From Alphaproteobacteria bacterium casp-alpha2 (GTDB taxonomy: Bacteria > Pseudomonadota > Alphaproteobacteria > Rhodospirillales > Casp-alpha2): a DNA stretch of 37,440 nucleotides. How positions within the stretch are numbered: position 1 is the stretch's first letter; each line of letters begins with the position of its first letter. The stretch is from the NCBI GenBank assembly GCA_001510075.1, contig LFEN01000004.1, forward strand, positions 1 through 37,440. Direction: 5' to 3'. The position numbers and the translations under genes were made by a program. The notes below the pieces were generated by a model. It was not told the DNA's origin and did not search any database. It worked only from the letters and a program-made list of their open reading frames with translations. Below, one piece after another: positions 6,806-8,987 of the stretch.

Positions 6806-8116
6806 TCAGCCTGCCAACCTTGAGAGCGCGTCTTCGGGGGAAACGTCTTCGCGTTCGCCCGTCGCCCGGTTCTTTAATTCTACAATGCCCTTGTCCACCC
6901 CCTTCGGCCCGATGATTACCTGCCAGGGCAGGCCGATCAAATCCATGTCGGCGAATTTGGCCCCGGCGCGGCCTTCTCGGTCGTCCATCAAGACTTCGAC
7001 GTTTGCCGCTTGAAGTTTTTGGTAGAAATCTTCCGCCGCCGTATCACAAGCGTCGTCGCCGGTTTTCAGGTTGATCAGGCCGACCTTGAATGGCGCCACC
7101 GCTTCCGGCCAGATGATGCCGTCATCATCGTGGCTGGCTTCGATAATGCCGCCGACGAGCCTTGAAACCCCGATCCCGTACGAGCCCATTTCGACGCTAA
7201 CGTCGTTGCCGTCCGGCCCGGTGACGATGGCGTTCATGGCTTCGGAATATTTGGTGCCGAAATAGAAAATATGCCCGACCTCGATGCCGCGCGCGACCAC
7301 CAGGTCCTTGCCCAAGGCTTTTTCCGCCCCTTCATCGCGTTCGTCATCGGTGGCGGCGTATTTTTCGGTGAAGGCATTGACGACGGTTTGCAGATCGCTG
7401 TTGGCAGCAATGTTTTCCAGCCATTTGTTATCGAGAAAATCCCGGTGGCAGGCAATTTCACTTTCCCCGGTATCGGCCAGGATAAGAAATTCGTGGCTCA
7501 TGTCGCCGCCGATGGGGCCGCTGGCGGCCTTCATGGGAATGGCCTTCAGCCCCATGCGGGCATAGGTCTTGAGATAGGCGATAAATTGTTTGTTGTAGGT
7601 TTGCTTGGCGGCTTCGAAATCGAGATCGAAGGAATAGGCGTCCTTCATCAGGAACTCGCGGCCCCGCATGACGCCGAACCGGGGCCGCACTTCGTCGCGG
7701 AACTTCCACTGGATGTGGTAGAGGTTTTTCGGCAGATCGCGGTAGCTTTTGACCGAATCCCGGAAAATTTCGGTGATCTGTTCCTCGTTGGTGGGCCCGT
7801 AAAGCATGTCGCGGTCATGGCGGTCGGTGATGCGCAGCATTTCCGGCCCATAGGCGTCGTAGCGCCCGCTTTCCCGCCACAGGTCGGCCGGTTGGATGGT
7901 CGGCATCAGCATTTCCTGGGCGCCGATGGCGTCCTGCTCCTCGCGGACGATTTGTTCGATCTTTTTCAACACCTTAAAGCCCATCGGCAGCCACGAATAA
8001 ATGCCGGCGGAAGACTGGCGCACCATGCCGGCGCGCAGCATCAGCCGGTGCGAAACGATCTGGGCCTCGGCGGGGTTTTCCTTGAGGGTCGGCAGGAAAT
8101 AACGGGATCGGCGCAT
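6806..8116 (-). CDS. proS: Prolyl-tRNA synthetase, short form without a full editing insertion domain
   Basis: 436 aa class II aa[103 protein letters not shown]. Confidence 0.97.
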
Positions 8117-8234
8117 TATGGGGGCCTCTGGATTACAAGAGAATCAGGTTCCGCCGACTGTATGCGTTTGCCGCGCCCGCTTCAATAACGGCAAGGTTCA
8201 ACATCGTATGCAGGGACAAGAATCTTGATGACGG

Positions 8235-8401
8235 GGGGTGGAAAACCCCTTAGAGTCCGTACCTATAAATACTCACTCGGTATTTGAAAAACGTCGGGGA
8301 TAGCCCGGGAATTGGGAGGACAAAAACAATAATAAGGGTTTCATGAAAACCCACTTTTAAACTGGGAGAGGCGGGATCGTTCGTGATCTTGCTTTTTTTT
8401 T
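8235..8401 (+). ncRNA. Candidate structured small RNA (intergenic, plus strand)
   Basis: No convincing ORF. Successive hairpins: GGGGT-GGAAA-ACCCC (8235-8249), AAATAC-TCACTCG-GTATTT (8267-8285), CGGG-GATAG-CCCG (8295-8307), GGGTTT-CATGA-AAACCC (8336-8352), ending in a Rho-independent terminator. The 5' end is undetermined. Confidence 0.45.
8371..8401 (+). terminator. Rho-independent terminator with UUCG tetraloop
   Basis: GCGGGATCG-TTCG-TGATCTTGC: 9-bp stem including G-U pairs, followed by 9 consecutive T. The G-U pairs become A-C mismatches on the minus strand and there is no T-tract there, so it is plus-strand specific. Confidence 0.8.
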
Positions 8402-8417
8402 GCCTTTTTTAAGCCGT

Positions 8418-8987
8418 TTACTTTTTCCTGTAAATCTTCGCATCGACCTGCATCCAGGGCGGGTTCTTTTTGGCGATACGCTTATAGGCTTGGCAGCCTT
8501 CGTGATGGGCGCCGGGCAGATAGCCTATGCACATCAAAAATTCGTTGACGATTTCGCCGCCCATGAACTTGAACGTCTGGCGGAACAGCTTCGTCCATTC
8601 GTCGCGGTTCAAGGGATGATGCAAGGCGATCCATTGGGCAAAACCACCATGGCTGCCTCTGAGCCCCTGTATCCGCCTGGCGTTTTCAATGATGGACGCG
8701 ACTTTTAGTTTATTGCGAATAATGCCTGCGTCGCCCAACAACCGTTTAACATCCCTGGCTTTGTAGGCGGCGACGATATCGACACCGAAATTGTCGAAGG
8801 CTTTGACCGTGGTCGGGCGTTTCTTGAGGATGAGCTCCCAAGACAGCCCGGCCTGGAACAGCTCCAGGGATTGCAGCTCAAACAAATAACGTTCGTCGTC
8901 TTTGCCATCTAGAGGAAAGCCGTATTCCTTGTCGTGGTAGGATTGGTGGATGGGGTTGCCTTTGGCGGCGTCGCAGTACCAGGACAT
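8418..8987 (-). CDS. tag: DNA-3-methyladenine glycosylase I family protein
   Basis: 189 aa; SYHDKEYGFPL, LFELQSLELFQAGLSWELILKKR, C-terminal HHEGC (HxxxC, Zn-snap like) as in Tag. Confidence 0.87.
   Translation of the reverse strand: MSWYCDAAKGNPIHQSYHDKEYGFPLDGKDDERYLFELQSLELFQAGLSWELILKKRPTTVKAFDNFGVDIVAAYKARDVKRLLGDAGIIRNKLKVASIIENARRIQGLRGSHGGFAQWIALHHPLNRDEWTKLFRQTFKFMGGEIVNEFLMCIGYLPGAHHEGCQAYKRIAKKNPPWMQVDAKIYRKK

Follow-up and report, generated by a model that had tools for sequence, protein, structure and literature searches.

The closest described counterpart of the RNA considered here is CrfA (CCNA_R0093; see also Landt et al. 2010) of Caulobacter crescentus. Experiments have established CrfA as a sponge of the alpha-r8 sRNAs SisA-D: pairing with their core runs through residues G49-C63 of a G/A-rich loop and is assisted by Hfq, SisA decays, and the SisA targets are freed during carbon starvation (Vogt et al. 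2025, PMC12559287). In NA1000, its transcription starts at 3,781,500 (minus strand; PMC5988900). CrfA is the only alpha-r8 sponge in the literature searched; such sponges are a kind already known, from one species (PMC12559287), and no wider conservation of CrfA is reported in PMC12559287 or PMC5988900. A sponge of sibling sRNAs is also described in Vibrio, where QrrX acts on the Qrr sRNAs (PMC12559287).

We analysed a 37,440-nucleotide stretch of an alphaproteobacterial draft genome (79.6% complete, 1.77 Mb), referred to as the window, in which the gap between proS and tag most likely encodes an alpha-r8 (MmgR/SisA) sponge acting like CrfA. The named relatives of this genome are Rhodospirillales MAGs.

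Results

A predicted plus-strand sRNA between proS and tag

An earlier note on this DNA had placed a structured plus-strand sRNA in a gap of about 300 bp between proS and tag, and the gap measures 301 bases (8117-8417). It is flanked by the prolyl-tRNA synthetase gene proS (6806-8116, minus strand), a divergent neighbour that is kept together with the RNA, and by the 3-methyladenine DNA glycosylase I gene tag (8418-8987, minus strand), which is convergent with it. A sigma-70 scan returned no promoter; the arrangement ATGACG-17 nt-TAGAGT became visible through alignment with relatives, in which the plus-strand -35 element (8228-8233) has the consensus RTGACN, with 100% identity within genus g7, and the -10 element (8251-8256) reads TANNNT. 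The predicted sRNA of about 139 nt occupies 8263-8401 on the plus strand, with its start taken from the promoter spacing (8262-8265) and its end from the T run. The note had let the RNA begin at 8220 and had counted a first hairpin (GGGGGTGGAAAACCCC) at about 8234-8250. Because this hairpin lies in the spacer that separates the two promoter elements (8234-8250), outside the RNA, and is unconserved, we place the start near 8263.

The plus-strand intrinsic terminator described in the note is present at 8371-8401, where the 9-bp stem with its UUCG loop, GCGGGATCG-TTCG-TGATCTTGC (8371-8392), is followed by nine T (8393-8401). Its strand specificity, attributed to G-U pairs, also holds: the pairs are there, and the stretch folds with -51.9 kcal/mol on the plus strand versus -34.3 kcal/mol on the minus strand. 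The series of hairpins in front of the terminator did not stand up as described: although the plus strand folds far better than the minus strand, the fold is no better than chance (z -1.38; 20 of 200 shuffles were as good). The hairpin series is therefore weak evidence, and the above-chance signal, as far as sequence comparison can tell, is the conservation of sequence, promoter and terminator among relatives.

Between promoter and terminator lies a conserved core, GCCCGGGAATTGGGAGGA (8303-8320, plus strand), a predicted sponge site that complements the core of the alpha-r8 (MmgR/SisA) RNA of the same genome. The A-rich repeat AAA-AAC-AAT-AAT-AAG (8322-8336, plus strand), which consists of ARN triplets and is kept among the relatives in the genus, is a candidate Hfq distal-face site; the genome contains an hfq gene, and the RNA combines the ARN repeats with a terminal U run. 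A small plus-strand hairpin, GGGTTT...AAACCC (8336-8352), is kept in the genus, and other genera have other hairpins instead. A mini-hairpin within the core (CCCG...UGGG) was considered and dropped as weak, being disrupted in f31 genomes. No Rfam 15 family matched the plus strand at the gathering score, in agreement with the note, which did not recognise the RNA as tmRNA, 6S, SRP or RNase P RNA; the 6S model (RF00013) has no match here, and the 6S RNA of this genome is located at G000:C6:24804-24954.

Homologues, synteny and conservation

A DNA search yielded copies with 67-70% identity in three genomes of the genus, and two further, more divergent copies were recognised by inspecting the regions downstream of tag. 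Further members in two other genera came from a first covariance model, about 50 genomes at E<=1e-5 from a second one applied to 317 genomes of the order, and about 20 further convincing loci from a third one applied to 385 genomes drawn evenly from the class, which also gave some chance matches without synteny. As judged by tblastn, nearly all convincing matches share the same slot, divergent from proS and convergent with an rnj-mce-DUF1467 operon that terminates with tag in some lineages. Since the covariance-model searches were genome-wide and used no synteny information, the shared proS slot provides independent support. In some genera tag is missing from the slot beside the RNA and DUF1467 is the neighbour there instead, and in g7 and f31 the RNA is kept though tag is absent from the site.

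The RNA is not universal, as many genera gave no match. The order of G402 gave none at E<=0.001, with its members scoring just above that threshold, and a search of a plasmid collection gave none. In G005 (L026, G005:C80), proS and tag abut directly, and the sRNA is absent from the site, with no match elsewhere in the genome. Several genomes carry, divergent to the sRNA, a gene whose product looks secreted and has the motif VAYxPGxDVxGxxVxPAD (L005:371-1366, L004:1-429, L046:222-842, L121:945-1376 and L135:907-1323, all on the minus strand); the two proteins tested had no Pfam match, and the set includes G410 and G544, where proS does not adjoin the sRNA.

A script detected a plus-strand terminator in 48 of 49 loci, and the pattern RTGAC-N16-18-TANNNT was found upstream in 33 of the 49, compared with 0.9% of shuffled upstreams, nearly always at a distance of 62-80 nt from the core. 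In genus g7 the identity was 1.0 in the -35 element, 0.54 in the spacer, 0.89 in the -10 element, 0.88 in the RNA and 0.26 just past the terminator, a footprint that, in the alignment, tracks the plus-strand gene and is confined to the RNA and its signals. The terminator stem shows compensatory changes: over 28 distinct sequences the helix is 98.6% paired, both partners vary in 5 of 10 pairs, and many of the changes form G-U on the plus strand, the count being biased towards this structure by an alignment fitted to it.

G007 and G003 have, in place of the -35 region, a palindrome that contains GTATAC (TGTATACA / GGTATACA; L023 ~1297-1305, L025 ~2262-2268), which looks like a GntR-type operator. 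The Shine-Dalgarno-like core, together with the TGTATACA palindrome near the -35 position in these two genomes, had raised the idea that the site is the leader, or a relic, of a gene for a transporter. This candidate was rejected: each genome of the genus has the core motif a single time, at this RNA, and no gene follows.

Taken together, the syntenic homologues, the plus-strand promoter and terminator and the RNA-confined conservation footprint bear out the central proposal of the note, and computation thereby supports the gene, its strand, its signals and its wide conservation. The predicted plus-strand sRNA gene appears real and has counterparts in the same slot in many Alphaproteobacteria.

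Complementarity to alpha-r8 sRNAs

The family core consensus, GCCCRRGUUUnGGGAGG, complements the 10-nt core of the alpha-r8 sRNAs (suhB/MmgR in Rfam; SisA-D in Caulobacter). The alpha-r8 RNA of the same genome, which scores above the Rfam cut-off, is encoded at G000:C34:43537-43610 near the gene for FGase (N-formylglutamate amidohydrolase), and the FGase neighbourhood is the published context of alpha-r8 genes (PMC12559287). Of 24,944 stretches covering both strands of the window, the best partner of the genome's own alpha-r8 core was the sRNA core, with a pairing energy of -29.6 to -30.9 kcal/mol, and some stretches outside the sRNA came close, the next-best reaching -29.3. Part of the core is the Shine-Dalgarno-like GGGAGG, which is able to pair with any CCUCC. 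Sponging by CsrB-like GGA repeats or of Cuckoo-RNA (CCUCCUCCC) was set aside, as alpha-r8 gives the longer complement.

In 30 genomes, own pairs of core and alpha-r8 averaged -39.6 versus -36.4 for swapped pairs (sd 0.53), with none of 20,000 permutations as good, and the preference was found both within the order (p=0.006) and in the rest of the class (0/20,000), although these permutation values overstate the significance because related genomes are not independent. The same matched changes were seen in distant families. All 4 genomes with UAGAC in alpha-r8 have GUCU in the sponge, as against 0 of 26 others (Fisher 3.6e-5), and outside the order alpha-r8 CUC/CUU accompanies sponge GAG/AAG (p=0.015). 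G371 has a perfect 25-nt complement between sponge and alpha-r8. In the genus to which the window belongs, own pairs do not come first: G009 and G002 pair better with many foreign alpha-r8 RNAs. The computed comparisons argue for complementarity that co-evolves with alpha-r8.

In two relatives from the class (L123 and L119), the minus strand of the core matches RF00519 (suhB/MmgR) above the cut-off, which implies that the plus-strand core is complementary to alpha-r8 sRNAs. The sponge model, in turn, weakly matches the antisense of alpha-r8 genes (G000:C34:43505-43625 on the minus strand, G003:C44, G020:C131, G076:C207 and G004:C14), as expected if the sponge came from an inverted alpha-r8 copy; by this resemblance, its origin may be an inverted or antisense copy of the alpha-r8 gene. 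Two tandem alpha-r8 genes about 220 bases apart were observed at L170 (G253:C47:394644-394715 and 394936-395008). The sole above-cut-off alpha-r8 match of G431 is the minus strand of its sponge locus (L123:1510-1583 = G431:C3:32618-32691, minus). This locus has a strong minus-strand terminator and is missing the RTGAC promoter at the usual distance, and it has possibly switched strands or uses both.

Alternative explanations

Pairing with partners other than alpha-r8 has to be weighed because of the nature of the core. It is G-rich and accessible, and CrfA itself was initially taken for an activator that pairs with mRNA (PMC12559287), so the RNA might be an ordinary trans-acting sRNA whose GGGAGG core pairs with C-rich mRNA stretches and not chiefly with alpha-r8. 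We consider this improbable, as the core tracks the alpha-r8 of the same genome also outside CCUCC, which mRNA targeting does not predict. The widely kept GGAGG is, moreover, a perfect Shine-Dalgarno sequence that could bind the 3' end of 16S rRNA and make the RNA a ribosome decoy or Shine-Dalgarno mimic. G084 (GGGGAAAC) and G092 (GGGGGAAG), however, are without GGAGG yet retain GCCCGGGTTTTGGG, the conserved stretch reaches far upstream of the Shine-Dalgarno-like part, and no conserved start codon comes after it, leaving the decoy with hardly any probability.

The layout of the locus invites two further explanations. The end of the RNA and the stop codon of tag are 17 nt apart, and the RNA is convergent with the operon, as would suit a mere antisense or insulating transcript for tag; alternatively, the RNA could be the decayed leader of a lost gene, the outcome that the note itself had named as speaking against an sRNA. 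The RNA is nevertheless kept in g7 and f31 where the site is without tag, it is strongly conserved, apparently under purifying selection, with its own promoter and terminator, and no gene lies downstream. Conservation, as read from the alignments, largely refutes both variants, to which we give almost no credence. Mispolarisation is the other concern: if the true RNA were a minus-strand alpha-r8 (MmgR) paralogue and the plus-strand signals were incidental, the two minus-strand RF00519 matches above the cut-off (L123 and L119) and the terminator-like minus-strand hairpins in 16 of 49 loci would fall into place. The suhB model (RF00519; alpha-r8/suhB/MmgR), however, found nothing on either strand of the window, the transcribed one included, at E<=5, or in eight relatives from the order at E<=0.1; a promoter of this type occurs on the minus strand in 0/49 loci against 33/49 on the plus strand; and the G-U changes in the stem of the nearly ubiquitous plus-strand terminator (48/49) would be A-C mismatches on the minus strand. 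A minus-strand alpha-r8 paralogue in this order is not supported by these sequence data and seems very unlikely. Overall, mRNA pairing, a ribosome decoy and a leader relic account for less of the data than a sponge does.

Discussion

As an alpha-r8 sponge, the RNA would be a free-standing sRNA of about 139 nt transcribed from its own promoter on the plus strand. Its exposed core (8303-8320) would pair with the alpha-r8 RNA that the genome encodes elsewhere, at the anti-Shine-Dalgarno core of that RNA (UUUCCUCCCA/U...). The pairing, which probably takes place on Hfq, would mask or destabilise alpha-r8, and its target mRNAs would be released. We infer expression, Hfq binding and the sponge effect, as well as any link to carbon status.

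We lean towards the idea that sponge control of alpha-r8 is an ancient arrangement of the Alphaproteobacteria and not a speciality of Caulobacter, with a dedicated sponge gene, perhaps an inverted alpha-r8 copy, that many families have retained next to proS while its core co-evolved base by base with an unlinked alpha-r8. Neither Rfam 15 nor the openly accessible literature searched describes the RNA family, its proS position, its class-wide spread or its co-evolution with alpha-r8. If the idea is true, alpha-r8 control, and with it carbon storage and nutrient uptake, would be exerted by a sponge-sRNA pair in many Alphaproteobacteria, and a class-wide syntenic sponge family would supply natural compensatory variants as well as a family absent from Rfam. 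It would also call for caution with MmgR-model matches beside proS, which may lie on the wrong strand.

The locus can finally be set against known RNAs. The 6S, tmRNA, SRP and RNase P RNAs are likewise structured and stand-alone, and their Rfam families do not match here. QrrX is, like the window RNA, a dedicated sponge gene directed against a family of sibling sRNAs; the hosts and targets are unrelated, and the likeness is one of description, not of sequence. The alpha-r8 RNAs (suhB/MmgR RF00519, SisA-D) have a core nearly identical to the minus strand of the window core, whereas the window RNA is read from the opposite strand at another locus and has its own promoter and terminator. The proS gene of Caulobacter presumably lies elsewhere than beside crfA. 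CrfA and the window RNA are both independently encoded and complement the alpha-r8 core UUUCCUCCCU with a G/A-rich element, which lies at about nt 49-63 in CrfA and, as GGGAGG, at about nt 52-57 here, and the layout of the window RNA, as predicted from its sequence, is that of CrfA: a GGGAGG core, followed by ARN triplets and a U run in the terminator, as is typical for sRNAs bound by Hfq.
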